Shown: positions 4,256 to 16,852 of the stretch, piece by piece
How positions within the stretch are numbered: position 1 is the first letter of the stretch
Layout of the letters: every line of letters starts with the position of its first letter
From: Comamonadaceae bacterium
GTDB lineage: Bacteria; Pseudomonadota; Gammaproteobacteria; Burkholderiales; Burkholderiaceae
Assembly: GCA_947374535.1 (NCBI GenBank)
Contig: CANCCJ010000047.1
Coordinates: 1-18,110, forward strand
Direction of reading: 5' to 3'
Length of the DNA stretch: 18,110 bases
Made by a program: the position numbers and the translations under genes
Notes under the pieces: model-generated
What the model was told of the DNA's origin: nothing
Seen by the model: the letters and a program-made list of their open reading frames with translations, nothing else
Databases searched by the model: none

Positions 4256-4756
4256 ATGGACTTGATTTTGTGGCGTCATGCCGAAGCTGAAGTCGCACCG
4301 GAAGGTGGTGATGATTTGTCTCGCTCACTCACAAAAAAGGGCGAGCGTCAGGCCATGCGTATGGCCTCTTGGTTAGATCGTCATTTACCGGAAGGTACGC
4401 GCGTGCTGGTCAGCCCATCGCGTCGCACGCAACAAACGGCCATGTCATTGGGGCGCAAATTTAAGTTGCGTGACGAACTGGTGCCCGAAACATCGGTCGA
4501 CGATGTAATGAATTTGCTCAAATGGCATCCAGAGACAGGCCCGCAGCTCAAAGGCCCCGTGTTGCTGGTGGGGCATCAGCCTTATTTAGGACAACTGGTG
4601 GCGCGGCTATTGGGCATGCGAGACGAGATGTGCCCTGTGCGCAAGGGCGGTGTTTGGTGGCTACGAACCCGCATACGCGACGGTCAACCGCAGACGGTGC
4701 TGTTGACTGTCGCATGTCCAGAACTTACTTCGAGTTCTTGGGACGACCGGTCTTGA
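4256..4756 (+). CDS. sixA: Phosphohistidine phosphatase SixA
   Basis: A 166-residue histidine-phosphatase-superfamily protein close in size to E. coli SixA (161). The catalytic His8 sits in the opening RHA motif (LILWRHAEAE) and the second His107 lies in VGHQPYLG; conserved Arg residues appear in SPSRRTQQTA. SixA dephosphorylates phosphohistidine, for example on HPt domains or the nitrogen phosphotransferase system. I choose ATG 4256 because GAGG (4244-4247) sits 8 nt upstream; a GTG at 4247 in the same frame would overlap that ribosome site. It follows ppk1 by 21 bp. Linkage of ppk1 and sixA is common in proteobacteria, although a direct role of SixA in polyP metabolism is not established. 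Its 3' end overlaps the convergent Lys-rich gene by 32 bp. Confidence 0.92.
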   Translation: MDLILWRHAEAEVAPEGGDDLSRSLTKKGERQAMRMASWLDRHLPEGTRVLVSPSRRTQQTAMSLGRKFKLRDELVPETSVDDVMNLLKWHPETGPQLKGPVLLVGHQPYLGQLVARLLGMRDEMCPVRKGGVWWLRTRIRDGQPQTVLLTVACPELTSSSWDDRS

Positions 4757-5177
4757 TGGTCGGTACGTTGCTCAAAGCTGCTTTAAATTGAATGTCGCTC
4801 ATAGCGGCAAGGGCTTTGATGCCAGCCCGCAGTAATTCGCTTTTCTTCACAGACTGACCCAGCTTGCCAGCCCGCAGCTTGAGGCTGTCGATGACCACGT
4901 ACTCATCCTTTGGGATGGTGAAGCTGTCGCGCACCAGTTTTGGCTTTTTCACTTTGGCTGGTTTCGCCACTTTGACGGCTTTGACTGGCTTAGGCGCAGC
5001 TGCTTTAACCGGTGCTTTTTTGACGGCAGTCTTGGTCACAGGCTTGGTTGCTACTTTTTTGACCGCAATTTTTTTGAGGGTGGGCTTCTTAGCAGCAGGA
5101 GATTTGACCAAGGGCGCTTTGACGGCGCGTGACTTGACAGCAGCTTGAACGATGGTTTTTTGAGCGGTTGTACTCAC
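4725..5177 (-). CDS. Lys/Ala/Pro-rich histone-H1-like protein with ribbon-helix-helix-like C-terminus
   Basis: A 150-residue strongly basic protein. Residues about 10-80 are a low-complexity tail of Lys, Ala, Pro and Val with KKxxVK/KPVK-type units, like histone H1 or AlgP-type C-terminal tails. Residues about 82-128 look like a ribbon-helix-helix unit: a short strand (VRDSFTIP), helix A (KDEYVVIDSLKLRAGKLG), then KKSELLRAGIKAL as helix B. A short tail with KTGRPK ends it. The start is GTG 5177, with AGGA seven nt upstream. I recognise this as a conserved hypothetical family of Burkholderiales, without a known function. It lies between sixA (convergent, 32-bp overlap) and ppx (same strand, upstream, 73-bp gap), with a Pho-box-like site just upstream. 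A polycation made next to polyP enzymes suggests binding to polyP and DNA, for instance on polyP granules; this is inference. Confidence 0.85.
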   Translation of the reverse strand: MSTTAQKTIVQAAVKSRAVKAPLVKSPAAKKPTLKKIAVKKVATKPVTKTAVKKAPVKAAAPKPVKAVKVAKPAKVKKPKLVRDSFTIPKDEYVVIDSLKLRAGKLGQSVKKSELLRAGIKALAAMSDIQFKAALSNVPTIKTGRPKNSK

Positions 5178-8769: not shown

Positions 8770-9336
8770 TTAAGCCATCAACGCTTCCAGCTCGGTGCAC
8801 GCCAGCCATGTGAGGCGTGGCAGTTGCAGCAATCCATCTGGCAGCTCAGTCAGTTGGTTGGCCGAAATGCGCAGCAGCTCTAAGTGTGTGCAGTTGGCCA
8901 GCTCGGGTGGCAAGGTGTGTAGTTGGTTGCCTGCCAGCATCAGCTTTTGCATGTGTGTGCATTGGCCAATCGCTGCAGGCAATGTGGCGAGCATGTTGTC
9001 AGTGAGGATGAGCCAACGTAACTGCGGTGGCAAAGCCTTGGGTGATACATGCGCAATGCGGTTGGCTTTGAATCCCACCATGCTGAGCTGTGTGCATTTG
9101 CCCAGCACTTCGGGCAGTTCAGTGAACGGGTTGTCCGAGCAAAAAATCACGCGCAGCTTGTGTAAGCGTGGCAGGTCATTGGGCAGGGCGACGAGCTGGT
9201 TGCCAGATAAATCTAATATTTCCAGTGAGTCAGCCAGCTCAAAAATTTCGCGTGGAAACTCGCTCAATCCGCAACGCAATTGCAAGCGTTGAATACCCGC
9301 CAGTTCACCACTTTGCAGTTGTTCCAGGGTGTGCAT
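8770..9336 (-). CDS. Leucine-rich-repeat protein
   Basis: A 188-residue protein built almost entirely of 22-23-residue leucine-rich repeats of the LxxLxLSxNxLxxLPxx type, about six of them between residues 15 and 175 (for example LEILDLSGNQLVALP, MQKLMLAGNQLHTLP, LELLRISANQLTELP). No signal peptide or membrane segment is seen, so a cytoplasmic protein-protein interaction role is likely. In Burkholderiales similar repeat blocks are, as I recall, followed by a protein-kinase domain; here the protein stops right after the last repeat and the stop lies 5 bp from phoX, so it may be a shortened form. The ATG at 9336 lies 3 bp after the chrA stop, implying translational coupling with chrA. Confidence 0.8.
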   Translation of the reverse strand: MHTLEQLQSGELAGIQRLQLRCGLSEFPREIFELADSLEILDLSGNQLVALPNDLPRLHKLRVIFCSDNPFTELPEVLGKCTQLSMVGFKANRIAHVSPKALPPQLRWLILTDNMLATLPAAIGQCTHMQKLMLAGNQLHTLPPELANCTHLELLRISANQLTELPDGLLQLPRLTWLACTELEALMA

Positions 9337-10695: not shown

Positions 10696-10707
10696 TGTTT
10701 CACGCCT

Positions 10708-12150
10708 TTATTTTTGTTGCACAGGAAAGGTAATGCGGGCCACTAGTCCCCCATTCTTTTGATTTGAAAGTGTGATTGTCGCTGCGTGCAATTGGCAAAT
10801 TTGTTGCACGATGGCTAAACCCAAGCCACAACCATTGCCCGTTTCTCCTGGCAGTCTATAAAAACGATCAAACACTTGGATTTGATTCTCTTCAGGTATT
10901 CCTGGCCCGCTGTCGATCACCTCTAGACTGGGACGACCGTCATCGGTGAAACAACGAACTTCAATGCTTCCACCAGACGGCGTATATCGGATTGCGTTAT
11001 CGATCAAGTTGATGGTTGCTTCGAACAGCATCCATTCCACACACATCGCATGCGCAGGATGTAAATCGAATGACAAATCAATATTTTTTTCAATGGCTGA
11101 ATCCAAGACCGTAGAGGCTGCCTTTTCTAGTAAAGAGCAGAATGCAACTTTCTGCTTTTCATAAATTAAGCTTCGACTGTAGTCAGACCGCGCATATGCA
11201 AGTAGCTGTGAAACGAGGTGCCCCATCCGCTCTGTAGACTGAAGTGCCTTGTTGAGGGGTTCTAAATCCGGTGATTGTGAATTTTCTTTAATAAAAATCT
11301 CAATGTTTGTCTGTACTGAGGACAGCGGTGTTCTTAGCTGATGCGCGGCATCGGCTAAAAATTGCTGTTGGCTAATTTGTGACTTTTTGAGAACTTTCAA
11401 TAATTCGTTGAGGTTGTCTAACAAAGGTTTTGTTTCAGGTGGATAAGTTCCTGAAAATTGAATCTCAGATAAATCATTGACCTTGCGTTTAGCAATTTCA
11501 GACTCAAGATGGTGCAAAGGGGCAAGTCCATTTTTAACTGCGATCCATACGCAAAGCAAGGTCAATGCAATGAATATTAAATTGGGGCCAATCATCGCAC
11601 TCAGAAAAGTTCTCAAAGCTTCTGATCGACTGAGTGTTGTTTTTAAAACGGTAACTTGAATTTCGCGATTGGAAATTTTAGTTGTATGGCTCGCAATTCG
11701 GACCGCTAAATTTTGCCAAGTGCCGTCTTGGAAACGAATCGCACGCGATGGGTATGCAAATGATGGCACATTGGGATCGCCTGCGAGTACGTTTCCATTG
11801 GTATCTCTGACACAGAAAAATATCGTGTCGGGTAAGTCACTTTCTATCAAGTTTTCAACTTCAGGTGAAATGTCGAGTTTGTGAGGTTGATTCCCACTGA
11901 ATCTGACCAAACTTTCTAAGTCAGTCACGACATCAGCCAGTGTGCTGTCGTATGCAGAATCAATGGTTTGGTGAGCAAGTTTGTAATCAATGGCCGCACT
12001 GATGGTCAGTAGCAATATCAGTGGTGGCACGAGAAACAGTAAAAGTCTTTTCCTCAGACTAATTTTTCCAAGCAACTTGATGGGGCTGTCAGTTGTTGGG
12101 CTCGTCAATTCGGTAACCGATGCCTCGGATTGTTCTGATAAAGACTTCAT
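10708..12150 (-). CDS. TctE/QseC-type sensor histidine kinase
   Basis: A 480-residue membrane histidine kinase. It has a cytoplasmic leader, TM1 at about residues 35-52, a periplasmic domain of the 2CSK_N type (about 55-180, with ASxYDSxLADVV-like and NGNVLAGDPNVP motifs), TM2 at about 184-206, and a HAMP-like linker. The phosphoacceptor is His270 in DAAHQLRTPL. The ATP-binding lobe follows with INLIDNAIRY (N box), DSGPGIP (G1) and GNGCGLGLAI (G2). The closest named relatives are TctE and QseC/PmrB; in the TctDE system the signal is tricarboxylate, but here the neighbours are cytochromes and ChrA, so a redox, metal or oxyanion cue is more likely (inference). The ATG 12150 overlaps the response-regulator gene by 62 bp, which is long; TTG codons downstream are possible alternative starts. 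Confidence 0.93.
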   Translation of the reverse strand: MKSLSEQSEASVTELTSPTTDSPIKLLGKISLRKRLLLFLVPPLILLLTISAAIDYKLAHQTIDSAYDSTLADVVTDLESLVRFSGNQPHKLDISPEVENLIESDLPDTIFFCVRDTNGNVLAGDPNVPSFAYPSRAIRFQDGTWQNLAVRIASHTTKISNREIQVTVLKTTLSRSEALRTFLSAMIGPNLIFIALTLLCVWIAVKNGLAPLHHLESEIAKRKVNDLSEIQFSGTYPPETKPLLDNLNELLKVLKKSQISQQQFLADAAHQLRTPLSSVQTNIEIFIKENSQSPDLEPLNKALQSTERMGHLVSQLLAYARSDYSRSLIYEKQKVAFCSLLEKAASTVLDSAIEKNIDLSFDLHPAHAMCVEWMLFEATINLIDNAIRYTPSGGSIEVRCFTDDGRPSLEVIDSGPGIPEENQIQVFDRFYRLPGETGNGCGLGLAIVQQICQLHAATITLSNQKNGGLVARITFPVQQK

Positions 12151-12760
12151 TTGATCCCAGCTTTTGCCTTAAACGAGAAATGTGAACTTCAATGTTGTTG
12201 AGCGTCACATCTTTGTCCCATCCCATTAACTTTTGAATCAGGGCATCTTTGGAAACAACATCTGGTGAAGCCAATAAAAGTATTTCTAGTATCTCCCATT
12301 CGCGCTTTGTGAGATCAATCACAATGCCATTGAGGGTCGCGATACGTGTAGAACTATTTAAAACAAATTGGTTGTGTGTAACGATGCATGTACTTTTGGC
12401 GTGTCTTCTTCGATACAGAGCCTTGAGCCGAGCGACGACTTCAGGCAGACGGTAAGGTTTGACCAAGTAGTCATCCGCCCCAGTGTCAAAGCTACGTACC
12501 AAATCCGTCACATCATCGCGCGCCGTCAAGATAAGTACAGGTGTTGAATTATTTGATTGTCGTATTCTTTGTAAAAAATCTAATCCACTAATGCCAGGCA
12601 GTCCAATATCAATGAGATAAATGTCGTAAATCTCGCCATGAATTGCCGATTGCGCCTTTTCTGCTGAGTCGAACCAGTCGACCAAATAGCCAAACTGTTT
12701 GAGTCCTGTCTTCAAGCCTTCAGCGAGTGGGGCATCATCTTCAATTAACAAAATTCGCAT
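12089..12760 (-). CDS. OmpR/PhoB-family (TctD/QseB-type) response regulator
   Basis: A 223-residue transcription regulator. The receiver domain has the acidic pair in IEDDAP, phosphoacceptor Asp51 in YLIDIGLPG, Thr79 in LILTARDD, and Lys101 in YLVKPYRLPE. The C-terminal winged helix (about 125-220) includes LTKREWEILE and NNIEVHISRLRQKLG with the closing IRTIRGIGYR. It is the partner of the overlapping sensor kinase. It starts 2 bp after the upstream tetraheme-cytochrome stop, so the regulator is translated from the operon it probably controls. Its likely target is the dyad at 13381-13419, whose 11-bp hexamer spacing suits an OmpR-family dimer. Confidence 0.94.
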   Translation of the reverse strand: MRILLIEDDAPLAEGLKTGLKQFGYLVDWFDSAEKAQSAIHGEIYDIYLIDIGLPGISGLDFLQRIRQSNNSTPVLILTARDDVTDLVRSFDTGADDYLVKPYRLPEVVARLKALYRRRHAKSTCIVTHNQFVLNSSTRIATLNGIVIDLTKREWEILEILLLASPDVVSKDALIQKLMGWDKDVTLNNIEVHISRLRQKLGSNEVFIRTIRGIGYRIDEPNN

Positions 12761-12762
12761 GA

Positions 12763-13365
12763 TTAGCGATTTTTTTCCAGAACGACGATGTCCGATGGTT
12801 CAGTGCCGTCGTTCGGTTCGTGATGCGCGATTCCGTAATGACAGTCAATGCATGTTTTTCCTTCGCTTTGCATTTTCCTGTGTTGTTTTCGCGCTGTTGG
12901 GCCTTGTGCATCAGGATCCATGGCTTGGACGTTATGACAACTTCTGCACTCCTGAGAGTCAGTGGATTTCATATGCTGCCATACACGGCTTGCCAGTTCA
13001 GATCGGCGTTGTTCAAATTTTTCTGGGGTATCAATCGTGCCCAAAAGATGGTGCCATACATCATTGGCAGCCAAAACCTTACGCTTCAATAAGCCAATGG
13101 TGTCATGTGGTACGTGGCAATCTGAGCAACTGGCTTGAACACCCGTTCTGTTTTTTGCATGAATTGTTTGCGAATATTCTGCAAAGTTGTTTTCTTTCAT
13201 TTCATGACAGCTGATGCAGAAGTTTGTATCGTTGGTCAGGTGAACAACGGATGCCATCCCCCAAAAGAGCATCGCACCCAGTGTAAGAAGACCCACGACA
13301 CCTAATATGCCAACTGTCCATTTTAATTTTGATTTACTCAACAGGTTCCCCTTAGATTTTTTCAT
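12763..13365 (-). CDS. NapC/NirT-family tetraheme c-type cytochrome (CymA-like)
   Basis: A 200-residue inner-membrane-anchored multiheme cytochrome. A single N-terminal membrane helix spans about residues 16-38. Four CXXCH heme sites lie at 50-54 (CISCH), 80-84 (CSDCH), 140-144 (CRSCH) and 172-176 (CIDCH); Met56 right after the first site is the usual NapC/NrfH-type ligand. His residues in TIHA, WHHLLG and ARKQH may be distal ligands. Family members pass electrons between the quinone pool and periplasmic partners. No nitrate or nitrite reductase gene is nearby; instead it is divergent from an outer-membrane cytochrome-porin, so it resembles a CymA-like quinone gateway. It is the first gene of a five-gene minus-strand run. 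The Shine-Dalgarno is weak. Direction of electron flow cannot be told from sequence. Confidence 0.92.
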   Translation of the reverse strand: MKKSKGNLLSKSKLKWTVGILGVVGLLTLGAMLFWGMASVVHLTNDTNFCISCHEMKENNFAEYSQTIHAKNRTGVQASCSDCHVPHDTIGLLKRKVLAANDVWHHLLGTIDTPEKFEQRRSELASRVWQHMKSTDSQECRSCHNVQAMDPDAQGPTARKQHRKMQSEGKTCIDCHYGIAHHEPNDGTEPSDIVVLEKNR

Positions 13366-13380
13366 TTTTAGCTTGAATTC

Positions 13381-13419
13381 CTGAACAAAGCCTTAACGGA
13401 GATTTCAGGTTTCTTTCAG
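13381..13419. promoter_or_regulatory. Four-hexamer dyad operator in the divergent cytochrome intergenic region
   Basis: Hexamers CTGAAC (13381-13386), CTTAAC (13392-13397), TTTCAG (13403-13408) and TTTCAG (13414-13419) are each exactly 11 bp apart. The last two are CTGAAA on the minus strand, so the whole is a dyad centred at about 13400: two CTGAA-type direct-repeat pairs facing each other, 12 of 17 positions matching between arms. An OmpR-family dimer binds 11-bp-spaced hexamers, so each arm could hold one dimer, serving the two divergent genes. It sits 16 bp from the tetraheme-cytochrome start and 48 bp from the cytochrome-porin start. The DNA pattern is direct; the binding protein is inferred. 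Confidence 0.65.
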
Positions 13420-13467
13420 TATGACGTGATCAAAATATGGCCATCACATCAGATCAATGAGTTCTAA

Positions 13468-14853
13468 ATGAAAAATCTTTTGCAAATGACATGGACGCGA
13501 TGCGCGTTAATTGCCCTTGCTGTATTTTCTGGCGCAATCGTTCCCTCGACGAGTTTCGCCGTACCCAGTTACGCACGCCAAACGGGCAGCGATTGTGGTG
13601 GCTGTCACGTCGGTGGATTCGGCCCACAATTGACCCCCTATGGCATGCGATTCAAAATGGATGGCTACATTGACTCCAATGGCAGTGATTCAAGCAAAGT
13701 TCCGCTTTCAGGCATGTTGGTGGGCAATTTGACAAAGACTAGAAAGGCGGCTGCAGAGGGCGATTCAGCAGATGGATTTAAGTCTAATAACAATGCTATT
13801 TTTCAGGAAGCTTCGCTTTTCTTGGCTGGTCGTTTGTCGGAGCGCGTGGGTAGCTTTACTCAATTGACTTACTCCGGGGTAGACAAAAAATGGGCGGTTG
13901 ACCAACTCGACATTCGTCACACCAAATCGGTAACGGTTCAAGACCAAGAGGCGACCATCGGCATCTCCCTCAATAACAATCCAACCTTGACCGATCCTGT
14001 GAATACTTTGGGGCAGTGGCGGTTTCCTTATATTTCGTCAGACTTTGGATACTCTCCTGCAGATCAAACCGTGCCCTTGGTTGAACGATTGGGCGGTAGT
14101 GTTGTTGGTTTGAATTTATATTCATTCCTTCAAAATGGCATTTATGCTGAGTACGGCTTATACAACACCCCGAGCCAGCAGACATTGAGCCGAATGGGCA
14201 GCGGGGATGCCGGCAGCTTCAAAGGCTTCGCGGATTACATGCGAGTGGCCTATCTTGCTGATCAAAAACGAAGCAATTGGTCCGTTGGTTTGCTTTACTT
14301 CGGCGCAAAAGTCAGACCTGATCGCACTTATGCAGGCGGAGATACTGACAACTACAAAGACTTTGGTGTCGATGCCTCTTATCAGTTCCTTGGTAACCGT
14401 GAGCACATGTTCACATTGACCTCTAGCTATATTCGAGAAAAAAGAAATCTTGGATATACCTATGGTGTGTTGGCCGAGGGCGATCAAGCGCAAACCACTG
14501 CTAATCAGTTCCGTATTGCAGGTTCGTATCACTACAAACAGCATTGGGGTACGACTTTAGGTTTGTTCGACAACCGTGCGACTGCGGACAGCAGCTATAG
14601 CGGAACTTTGGGTTCTGCGGGGGGCTCTGCATCTTTACGCCCCAATACATCAGGCTACACGGTTCAGTTCGACTGGACACCATGGGGACAAGAGAAGTCA
14701 TGGTTAGCGCCTAACGCAAATGTCCGAATGGGGATTCAATATACCGGCTATCAGCGCTATATGGGTGGGGCTACCTATATTGATGGAAGCGGAGATCTGC
14801 GCAATGCAAAAGACAACAACACATTAATGTTGTTTGTCTGGACATCTATTTAA
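13468..14853 (+). CDS. Cyc2-like fused monoheme cytochrome c / outer-membrane beta-barrel
   Basis: A 461-residue exported protein. A signal peptide ends near residue 31 (SFA, then VPSYARQTG). A single heme site CGGCH lies at 43-47, followed by a short cytochrome-like segment (PQLTPYGMRFKMDGY, 53-67; Met60 or Met64 are possible ligands). The remaining about 380 residues have alternating polar/aromatic beta strands with glycine turns and aromatic belts, ending in LMLFVWTSI, as in an outer-membrane barrel. This layout and the PSYARQTG-CxxCH-LTPYGxRFKxxGY pattern resemble Cyc2, the fused cytochrome-porin that takes electrons from Fe(II) in iron oxidisers. Substrate here is unknown; related barrels exist in bacteria not known to oxidise iron. 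The start ATG 13468 has only a weak ribosome site. The class I cytochrome c follows after 12 bp. A plain porin is excluded by the heme motif. Confidence 0.78.
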   Translation: MKNLLQMTWTRCALIALAVFSGAIVPSTSFAVPSYARQTGSDCGGCHVGGFGPQLTPYGMRFKMDGYIDSNGSDSSKVPLSGMLVGNLTKTRKAAAEGDSADGFKSNNNAIFQEASLFLAGRLSERVGSFTQLTYSGVDKKWAVDQLDIRHTKSVTVQDQEATIGISLNNNPTLTDPVNTLGQWRFPYISSDFGYSPADQTVPLVERLGGSVVGLNLYSFLQNGIYAEYGLYNTPSQQTLSRMGSGDAGSFKGFADYMRVAYLADQKRSNWSVGLLYFGAKVRPDRTYAGGDTDNYKDFGVDASYQFLGNREHMFTLTSSYIREKRNLGYTYGVLAEGDQAQTTANQFRIAGSYHYKQHWGTTLGLFDNRATADSSYSGTLGSAGGSASLRPNTSGYTVQFDWTPWGQEKSWLAPNANVRMGIQYTGYQRYMGGATYIDGSGDLRNAKDNNTLMLFVWTSI

Positions 14854-14865
14854 TTTAAGGCTGCT

Positions 14866-15246
14866 ATGAAAAAAATAGCCGTATGGGTATCGCTGGCATC
14901 GCTTGCTGTGATCTCCACCGCCAGTCATGCAGAAGGAAACGCGAAGGCAGGTGCTTCTGTCTTCACGGAGGAGTGCAGCGACTGTCACAGCACTACACCG
15001 GGCCGTAACAAACGTGGTCCCTCACTTGTGGGGGTGATGGGCAGAAGAGCTGGCTCTGTCACCGATTTTTCTGGTTATTCAGAGGCGATGAAAAAAGTCG
15101 ACTGGACCTGGACTGCGGAGAAGCTAGAGGCTTACATCACAGCACCTAAAAAAGTTGTGCCGGGTGGTCGCATGAAATACGATGGGCTTCAAGATGCAAA
15201 AGACAGGGCTGACGTCATTGCTTATGTCACGAGCTTGACCAAATAG
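14866..15246 (+). CDS. Periplasmic class I cytochrome c
   Basis: A 126-residue soluble monoheme cytochrome of the c2/c-550 kind. A signal peptide ends at residue 22 (SHA before EGN). The heme site CSDCH lies at 37-41, GRRAG in the middle is typical of cytochrome c2-like folds, and the likely axial Met103 is in GGRMKYDGL. The C-terminal helix reads AKDRADVIAYV. The ribosome site AAGG is 5 nt before ATG 14866. It starts 12 bp after the cytochrome-porin stop, so the two form an operon; the natural role is to shuttle electrons between the outer-membrane heme and inner-membrane acceptors or donors such as the divergent tetraheme cytochrome or a terminal oxidase. No hairpin terminator is evident in the 31 bp before the convergent mnmC-type gene. 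Confidence 0.93.
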   Translation: MKKIAVWVSLASLAVISTASHAEGNAKAGASVFTEECSDCHSTTPGRNKRGPSLVGVMGRRAGSVTDFSGYSEAMKKVDWTWTAEKLEAYITAPKKVVPGGRMKYDGLQDAKDRADVIAYVTSLTK

Positions 15247-15277
15247 TTGGGGATCTTGCGTCGTGCATCTTCGCTGG

Positions 15278-16852
15278 CTAAATAGGCGCAAAGCGATTGG
15301 CATCTAAAAACTTTGCCAAACGTGCTTCGATGGGCAGCGGCTCGCCATGCCATTGCGCAGCCAGTAACTCACCGCAAAGCAAACCCAGTGTTAAACCGCG
15401 TGACCCCATTGCTGTGTTCATGTACAAACCTTCGGGGGCGTTGTGAACGCGCCCCGTCATTGGCAATCGGTCGTGTACAACGCAGCGCACGCCTGCCCAA
15501 CCGTGTACACGGGGTGCGTGTGTCCCCACGCTCGCAAACAAGGGCGCAATTGCAGCGGCTGTATCTGGTTCCAAAGCTTTCAGGCGTTCTAGGTTTTCGA
15601 CATGGTCGTGGTCTAACAAGCGCGCATCACTGTGGATTCTGTCATAGGTTGCACCCGTGTACCACGCGAGCCCGTTCGACGAAGGAATGTTGTACACAAA
15701 ACTGCCGTTGCCATTCACAGGGGTGGCGGGCATGTGTGAGCCTTCGGGCACATCAGCCATCAAACCCCAAGAGACTTGTCCGCGCAGTGGATTGATACGC
15801 GGAGCACGGCCATCCTCTGTTGCAGTGGCGATGAGTGCCGTAGAACCGGGGCCTGCGGCTAATACAACGCGTGATGATTCAGCCAAAACAGTACGACCCT
15901 GCATCAGCTGCCATTTGCAGTCGGTGTGTTTGAGTGTATCCACCTTCGCATGGCCTTGCCAATGGATATTCGGGTGGTCTAACAGCGCGCGTACCAAGTG
16001 GGCAGGTCTTAGCCACGCGCCGTGTGGATGCCAGTAGGCATCGTCAGGTGCGGGCGCAGGGGCTTGGCATGTCCAGTCGTTAGCAGTCAGCGCGTTTTCG
16101 TTCAGCCAACTGGGGGGCAGGCCCCCACGTCGTGTTTTGCCGGGCAAGCGGCGTTCGCGTACACCGCTGTTGCCCCAGTCCACGCCTGGTGTCATTAGCA
16201 GGCGCATGGTTTGTTCCATGTGGCGCAGGCCTGCGCGAGAGAGGCGCGACACGCCGCTGTCATCGAGAGAGGTGTGTGGTGCCACCACTCCCACAGGCAG
16301 GCCAGATGCGCCTGCTGCGGGTTGCCCGCCCGCGTCTAAAACCGTGACGAGCCATCCGCGTTCGGCCAATGCCCATGCACTACCCGCACCGGCAATGCCT
16401 GCGCCGACGATGGTCACACTGCGTTCTCTCAATGCCGCAGTTTCTGGCGGTATTGGGCAGGGGCCGGTGGGGTGTGTGCGTAGCACCTCTGTAAATTCGG
16501 GCCAGTTCGCATGCGCACCGACACAGAGTGTGAGCATCAAGCGCGCCTGTGTATCGGGGCCTGTGTTGAGCGCAAACCACAAGCGATGGATGCCGGGTAG
16601 CAAGCCCCAGCATTGCTCGGCCAGTTGCCACGCCAAAGGCTGTAGTGCGAGGTTATCAGCCGCAGCCGCGCGCAATGCATCTGCCCGCAAGGCCTGTTCC
16701 GTGTGCGCGACAACATGTAAGTGCTTGGGGCGCGCGGGATCCGCTGCCCAGTTGTGCCATAAACGCAGAAAAGCCAGCTCGTCAAAGCTGGCTTGGGTGT
16801 GGCACCAGCTGTCGCAGCCGTGCCATGCATGTAGTTCGTGTGAACGAACCAC
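15278..16852 (-). CDS. mnmC: MnmC-type tRNA-modifying FAD oxidoreductase with reduced methyltransferase half
   Basis: A 524-residue protein. The C-terminal part (from about 145) is the MnmC2-type FAD-dependent oxidoreductase that converts cmnm5s2U34 to nm5s2U34 in tRNA: dinucleotide motif VTIVGAGIAGAGSAWALAE at about 146-164, GASGLPVGVVAPH, NPLRGQVSW, and a C-terminal GWAGVRCVVHDRLPMTG and GSRGLTLGLL. The N-terminal part (1-140) keeps only traces of the MnmC1 methyltransferase, such as FDELAFLRLWHNWAADPARPKHLH, and lacks the glycine-rich SAM loop and the DGFxPxxNPxMW region of full MnmC (E. coli 668 residues). The SAM-dependent second step may thus be lost or supplied elsewhere. Start is GTG 16852, 5 bp after yggX, without a clear ribosome site, so the exact start is uncertain. 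Confidence 0.85.
   Translation of the reverse strand: MVRSHELHAWHGCDSWCHTQASFDELAFLRLWHNWAADPARPKHLHVVAHTEQALRADALRAAAADNLALQPLAWQLAEQCWGLLPGIHRLWFALNTGPDTQARLMLTLCVGAHANWPEFTEVLRTHPTGPCPIPPETAALRERSVTIVGAGIAGAGSAWALAERGWLVTVLDAGGQPAAGASGLPVGVVAPHTSLDDSGVSRLSRAGLRHMEQTMRLLMTPGVDWGNSGVRERRLPGKTRRGGLPPSWLNENALTANDWTCQAPAPAPDDAYWHPHGAWLRPAHLVRALLDHPNIHWQGHAKVDTLKHTDCKWQLMQGRTVLAESSRVVLAAGPGSTALIATATEDGRAPRINPLRGQVSWGLMADVPEGSHMPATPVNGNGSFVYNIPSSNGLAWYTGATYDRIHSDARLLDHDHVENLERLKALEPDTAAAIAPLFASVGTHAPRVHGWAGVRCVVHDRLPMTGRVHNAPEGLYMNTAMGSRGLTLGLLCGELLAAQWHGEPLPIEARLAKFLDANRFAPI

Follow-up and report, generated by a model that had tools for sequence, protein, structure and literature searches.

The window (the whole 18,110-nucleotide stretch analysed here, on contig 1 of a Comamonadaceae bacterium assembly of 2.23 Mb in 212 contigs that is 76.9% complete, which limits what absences from it can mean) carries a cassette of five genes between positions 10708 and 15246, arranged as two divergent sets with an intergenic gap of 102 bp. 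The rightward set begins with the gene for a cytochrome–porin fusion, CP (13468–14853, + strand; 461 aa), which has an N-terminal helix like a signal peptide, a single CXXCH (residues 43–47) and a predicted 16-strand barrel, followed after 12 bp by the gene for a class I monoheme cytochrome c (cytc; 14866–15246, + strand; 126 aa; PF00034, 32.1 bits), which adjoins CP in relatives as well. The leftward set comprises napC, for a tetraheme cytochrome of the NapC/NirT family (12763–13365, − strand; 200 aa; PF03264, 228 bits), then, after 2 bp, the gene for an OmpR-type, QseB/PmrA-like response regulator (RR; 12089–12760, − strand; PF00072 and PF00486), whose frame as called overlaps that of a QseC-like histidine kinase with a 2CSK_N sensor domain (HK; 10708–12150, − strand; PF08521, PF00512 and PF02518). 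Between the divergent genes lies a candidate operator (13381–13419) with two CTK-N8-CTKA direct-repeat sites inverted to each other. The three cytochrome reading frames reported in the initial annotation of this DNA are all present where it had placed them. CXXCH-like DNA patterns occur 15 times in the window, compared to a mean of 2.9 and a maximum of 9 in 200 shuffles, which rules out chance; four lie in napC and one each in the CP and cytochrome c genes.

We consider it probable that these genes encode a horizontally spread, regulated and quinone-linked trans-envelope electron conduit built on a Cyc2-like cytochrome–porin. The observed basis consists of the genes themselves, their recurrence as a block, a slot filled by either cytochrome b561 (b561) or NapC, a shared operator architecture and an empty site in two relatives; the position of the heme, the order of electron hops, the quinone link and regulation by the kinase/regulator pair are what we infer.

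The cytochrome–porin and its relation to Cyc2

CP has neither a Pfam nor an NCBIfam match, and no solved structure was found to be clearly related to it by sequence (best E values 1.5 and 0.23). AlphaFold with 135 sequences predicted a 16-strand barrel, superseding a weak model obtained with 30 sequences (pLDDT 67.3). Met83 lies on strand 1 of the model; among the invariant columns of the 135 aligned sequences it is the sole Met, and it is a candidate distal heme ligand. CP homologues at E ≤ 1e-3 numbered 2034 (among 7999 scored candidates), and named hosts among the best 120 of these 2034 include Azonexus, Aromatoleum, Rubrivivax, Accumulibacter and Dechloromonas aromatica. The motif P-x-[Y/F]-A-R-Q-T-x3-C-x2-C-H-x5-P-x-L matched in 113 of the same best 120 (109 with Y and four with F, leaving seven unmatched). 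A plasmid search gave nine records with CP relatives, all below 60% identity, and in both of the plasmid neighbourhoods that we opened CP is followed by a c-type cytochrome.

Cyc2 has been defined by a CXXCH near the N terminus, AXPXFAR[Q/K][T/Y] upstream of it, PXL four residues after CXXCH, and a fused porin (PMC8406198; this and the other papers cited are drawn on in their accessible parts). CP shares with Cyc2 (Mariprofundus, Acidithiobacillus, Leptospirillum Cyt572) the N-terminal CXXCH, the A-x-P-x-[Y/F]-A-R-Q-T motif and the 16-strand barrel, its fused porin being of the expected size (about 16 strands, at least 365 aa), but differs in a single F to Y substitution within the published motif (AVPSYARQT), in a PXL shifted by one, with five residues between H47 and P53, and in having NapC and a two-component pair alongside. 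The Y/F difference is not a divide, since L103–L106, members of the same 41-row clade as the window CP in the tree described below, have F. The published Cyc2 tree was filtered on PXFAR[QK][TY], and many Cyc2 homologues are described as uncertain in function (PMC8406198); a filter of this kind would leave out CPs with Y. We call CP Cyc2-like rather than filing it as Cyc2, setting it apart by the published motif and not by verified Cyc2 sequences. The Cyc2 label that the initial annotation had given it thus holds for the architecture, including the predicted barrel with CXXCH, and fails in its strict form by one motif residue and the one-residue PXL shift.

A second CP group, flanked by diheme cytochromes, is related to this one: its profile (12 aligned members) aligns with that of CP across 421 columns, with a probability of 100, and its members mostly have P-[E/Q]-L-T-P-[Y/F]-G-R after CXXCH. 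A diheme-type profile search returned no match named Cyc2 among the best 120 of 3033.

Cyc2-like genes have been named in Dechloromonas aromatica RCB and Uliginosibacterium gangwonense (He et al., 2017, PMC5566968). Our relatives from D. aromatica (P0047) and U. gangwonense (L019), which are 54% and 45% identical to CP, would be these same genes, going by organism name alone, and the CP family is therefore probably already in print as Cyc2-like. The cassette differs from those genes as published, for which the accessible part of that paper names no NapC, class I cytochrome c or two-component partner. Known, then, are Cyc2-like genes in two CP hosts; in the literature searched, which held few subscription journals and no bioRxiv preprints and was accessible in part, we found no description of a CP with NapC or b561, nor of a cassette with interchangeable quinone partners.

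Recurrence, partners and probable gain of the cassette

A scan of genome contigs, started from two peptides, one of them A[VL]PSYARQT, and thus favouring members with Y, gave 222 pattern matches, 214 of which are relatives, and the best 80 were used as loci. A profile search within the same family found a CP match in 31 of 250 genomes (own included) and 26 of 141 genera, and 20 stretches were taken from 19 of these 31 genomes. With the window, this makes 101 mapped sequences, one of which (L102) repeats another (L061). The divergent order HK-RR-napC/CP-cytc was found in 13 of the 101 (L002–L007, L009–L012, L034, L039 and the window), L039 ending before cytc, and NapC lies beside CP in four more loci with three other orders, namely CP-cytc-NapC (L013 and L017), CP-NapC-cytc (L104) and NapC-CP (L117). 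The initial annotation had taken the three cytochromes as the unit, beside a two-component pair whose company it called unusual. The genes of that unit are real and, as it had asked to see, the cytochromes and the pair are kept together in many other loci; the unit was drawn too small, as five genes recur together, regulator and kinase included, and a recurrent cassette is no one-off. Nor did any of the three outcomes that it had named as damaging appear, a barrel being predicted, CXXCH being present in most homologues and the three cytochromes co-occurring.

We then placed 94 CPs in a quick maximum-likelihood tree with SH-aLRT support only, leaving out the repeat L102 and the short, broken or cut sequences L005, L008, L039, L056, L078 and L115. 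Of the rows of a 41-row clade (SH-aLRT 98), 22 have b561, 14 have NapC, three have cytochrome c alone and two have neither. The window falls in a 12-row group (SH-aLRT 100) with NapC in all rows, and NapC occurs also at L017, at L104, which lies within a group having mostly b561, and at the distant L117, where a long branch makes the placement unsure. Branches starred in the tree force at least three changes of the NapC label. CP has two-component genes nearby in 12 of the 15 rows with NapC and in 11 of the 22 with b561. The b561 assignment agrees with PF01292 in all four scanned upstream proteins of the b561 cluster; at L015, the given frame has no Pfam match, yet b561 profile matches lie beside CP. 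NapC/NirT proteins and cytochromes b561 are both families that work with quinones, and our main reason for proposing a quinone link is that these unrelated proteins fill the same slot beside CP.

In the outer groups of the tree, 20 rows have a diheme cytochrome and others no recognised partner; rows of the latter kind number 34 in all, many of them from Rhodanobacter or Lysobacter. At L040–L055 (Rhodanobacter, Lysobacter and some unclassified) CP has none of the tested electron-transfer partners adjoining it. Two loci have two CP genes close together (L019:8851-13565 and L079:5492-8751); at L019, the first is accompanied by b561 and a class I cytochrome c, and the second by a diheme cytochrome.

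As a control, made without L102, we compared sequence within 1.5 kb of CP (287 kb) and sequence more than 4.5 kb from it (544 kb). NapC (17), b561 (25), class I cytochrome c (44) and diheme c4 (22) were all found near CP, with none of any of the four far from it, while RR matches were 20 near versus 10 far and HK matches 25 versus 3; these counts come from profiles built from the same neighbourhoods, favouring near matches, and related loci are not independent, which is one of several points that weigh against the proposed conduit. Within the 41-row clade, L014, L020 and L027 have cytochrome c and no quinone module in the sequence examined, and L029 and L033 have neither, the sequence of L029 ending 236 bases after CP and that of L033 beginning 733 bases before it. 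The shared neighbourhood demonstrates a functional link and is not proof of electron transfer. A high-potential carrier placed before quinone would make inward flow to quinone partly uphill. Lithoautotrophy is unsupported here, because no RuBisCO was found in the 76.9%-complete assembly.

Genes for a rhodanese, MnmC, ChrA, a leucine-rich repeat (LRR) protein, Ppx and Ppk occur in the same order in the same-genus genomes G080 and G184, the only ones examined at the site, and mnmC directly adjoins chrA in both. The two aligned flank blocks are spaced by ~100–140 bp in these relatives versus ~4.65 kb in the window, and GC content is 45.6% across 10708–15246 compared to 53.3% in the left flank and 59.5% in the right flank. 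Because chrA adjoins mnmC in the two same-genus genomes, the five-gene block between chrA and mnmC in the window (10696–15277) looks inserted, and the five genes were apparently acquired together from another bacterium; the alternative is that both G080 and G184 may have lost it. We considered chrA itself as a cassette member, given that it lies 12 bp after the HK gene, and rejected it, since no chrA was found in the loci of the 80 mapped relatives and two congeners have it as part of their native flank.

Across 84 genomes of the genus (own included), CP exceeds 359 bits only in the window genome (685 bits). Matches at E ≤ 1e-3 in 25 of the 84 comprise the window, 19 clear and more distant CPs and five weak fragments (18–21 bits). 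A diheme c4-type cytochrome lies beside CP in eight of the nine distant same-genus loci examined, L139–L146 among them, and no NapC, b561 or class I cytochrome was found in the nine, where the sequence examined reached at most 1.5 kb on each side of CP. The genus thus holds two kinds of CP conduit, as other species carry a distant CP with a diheme c4-type cytochrome.

The proposed conduit and its direction

The tetraheme protein has the features of the NapC/NirT family, with PF03264, four CXXCH motifs and a hydrophobic stretch at its N terminus, and is 44% identical to Escherichia coli NapC over 170 residues; it differs from the family in that the window has no nap or nir genes and in its score with the NCBIfam NapC/NirT model TIGR02161 (223.5 bits, under the cut-off of 310.6). 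It is the sole PF03264 match found in the 76.9%-complete assembly. We assign it as NapC/NirT-type from a comparison with E. coli NapC alone, CymA lying outside that comparison, and ‘CymA-like’, as it had first been described, says too much. The class I cytochrome c has its CXXCH and, invariant in nine aligned sequences, Met103, a candidate axial ligand.

In the conduit that we propose, CP would hold one heme in or near the outer-membrane barrel and trade electrons with a small, soluble partner on the exterior of the cell; the class I cytochrome c would carry electrons through the periplasm, and their exchange with the quinone/quinol of the inner membrane would fall to the NapC/NirT protein. 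The closest functional parallel is the MtoAB-MtoD-ImoA (CymA) route of Sideroxydans lithotrophicus ES-1 (PMC9600427, PMC10654088, PMC12442390, PMC13390463), which likewise joins an outer-membrane conduit, a monoheme periplasmic cytochrome c and a NapC/NirT protein at the quinone pool, whereas here a monoheme cytochrome–porin replaces decaheme MtoA and 26-strand MtoB. That route (PMC9600427) and Cyc2 (PMC8406198) provide the precedents for reading the cassette in this way. The cassette differs from MtrAB, MtoAB and PioAB conduits in lacking their MtrB/PioB barrel: PF11854 had no match in the 76.9%-complete assembly, in agreement with the earlier statement that no MtrA/MtrB-type complex is present.

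Regarding direction, we tentatively suggest that the conduit may run inward, with Fe(II) or some other soluble, reduced compound as the donor. Biochemical evidence exists for three Cyc2 representatives, all of which oxidise Fe(II); Cyc2 of PV-1, an Fe(II) oxidiser, has a potential of 208 mV (PMC8406198). In outward flow, a sub-case of the same conduit, NapC or b561 would oxidise quinol and the electrons would leave through cytochrome c and CP for an acceptor outside the cell, for instance soluble Fe(III) or a different oxidant; the system would then serve as a valve for respiration or redox balance. We give this slightly less weight than inward flow: the recurrent partner of CP is a quinone-linked protein and RuBisCO was not found, as would suit it, but the Fe(II) oxidation by Cyc2 representatives speaks against it, as does the potential of PV-1 Cyc2, which is too high for reducing weak acceptors (PMC8406198). 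ImoA, earlier thought to be a quinone reducer, oxidised quinol in Shewanella, and the same paper treats as open which way electrons pass through the NapC/NirT proteins of an iron-oxidising bacterium (PMC9600427).

A broader proposal, to which we give somewhat less than even weight, is that of a mobile extracellular-electron module in which CP is joined to the quinone pool via interchangeable NapC/NirT or b561, often with its own two-component switch, and which may work in both directions or as an outward valve. If true, this would be the first fused cytochrome–porin tied to quinol oxidation, and not to Fe(II)-fed oxidases, in the literature searched. Should this reading of the module prove right, hosts not usually associated with electron exchange at the cell surface, Accumulibacter included, may be capable of it. 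With its five genes, single promoter region and choice of two quinone partners, the module is a compact system that could be moved as a unit into a laboratory host.

The genes might instead serve two separate functions, CP and cytochrome c feeding a terminal oxidase from an outside donor and NapC serving some other periplasmic reductase. Both aa3 and cbb3 oxidases are encoded in the genome, feeding oxidases is a common role of class I cytochromes, and the CP and cytochrome c of L014, L020 and L027 stand, as noted above, without a quinone module. We nevertheless judge such a split unlikely, given that NapC is linked to CP in four different orders, that b561 occurs in its place and that the five genes were apparently inserted jointly. 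The search for a reductase partner points the same way: the best models for the four molybdopterin matches in the genome were formate dehydrogenase for L123–L125 (only L124 above cut-off) and NuoG for L126 (above cut-off), and, with L123 also scoring with assimilatory nitrate-reductase models below cut-off, none of the four reaches the NapA or NarG cut-off, on which ground we rejected a nitrate reductase as the client of NapC. The initial annotation had excluded nitrate and nitrite reductases alike. The first exclusion stands for NapA and NarG in the 76.9%-complete assembly; on the nitrite side NrfA and NirK were not searched, and a 351-aa frame (L138, G000:C100:2744-3055) has a single cytochrome d1 match, partial in covering 104 of 368 positions and marginal in that its 25.5 bits equal the cut-off, which is a possible NirS relative or a chance match.

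Two-component pair, candidate operator and neighbouring genes

The best NCBIfam models for the regulator and the kinase were QseB (207 bits) and QseC (183 bits), and since these scores are below the respective cut-offs of 345 and 475, with the PmrA/PmrB models likewise ranking high yet short of theirs, we place the pair as of the QseBC/PmrAB kind and not as an orthologue. In the proposed conduit, it would switch both divergent operons from the shared operator. Two inverted CTK-N8-CTKA sites are present in 13 of 13 divergent intergenic stretches, the pattern having been fitted after inspection of these same 13 promoters. The pair at 13381–13419 is the only one in the window, and single-base shuffles of the operator stretch reproduced such a pair in 2 of 5000 cases. 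The 11-bp period of the sites resembles, we presume, that of PmrA/QseB sites. A stricter 16-mer consensus matches the other 12 divergent promoters and misses that of the window, where the best match is 9 of 16. Elsewhere, it gave ~12 pairs in 11 loci versus 10 in shuffled sequence, and stray pairs are thus at chance level. Scans for sigma-70 promoters and terminators showed no excess over shuffles.

The kind of regulator bears on a further alternative, a redox or metal stress device in which the conduit would remove surface Fe(II) or reactive species under QseBC/PmrAB-like control with no energy gain. The resemblance of the pair to QseBC/PmrAB would fit such a device, as would the presence of CP relatives in hosts such as Accumulibacter, which with similar hosts is known as a heterotroph. 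We find it improbable, however, since visual inspection of the sensor domain in an alignment of 22 kinases brought out no evident metal-binding motif, the ExxE-type iron motif included, and nothing among the five genes resembles a detoxification enzyme.

Two further reading frames of the window have counterparts in the same-genus locus L133. A 150-aa Lys/Ala/Pro-rich protein (4725–5177, − strand), without a Pfam or NCBIfam match, is similar to a frame at 16284–16766 of L133. The LRR protein, encoded beside phoX (8770–9336, − strand), has 188 aa; it looks shortened, since its counterpart in L133 has 456 aa, with a longer second half that reads like a kinase.

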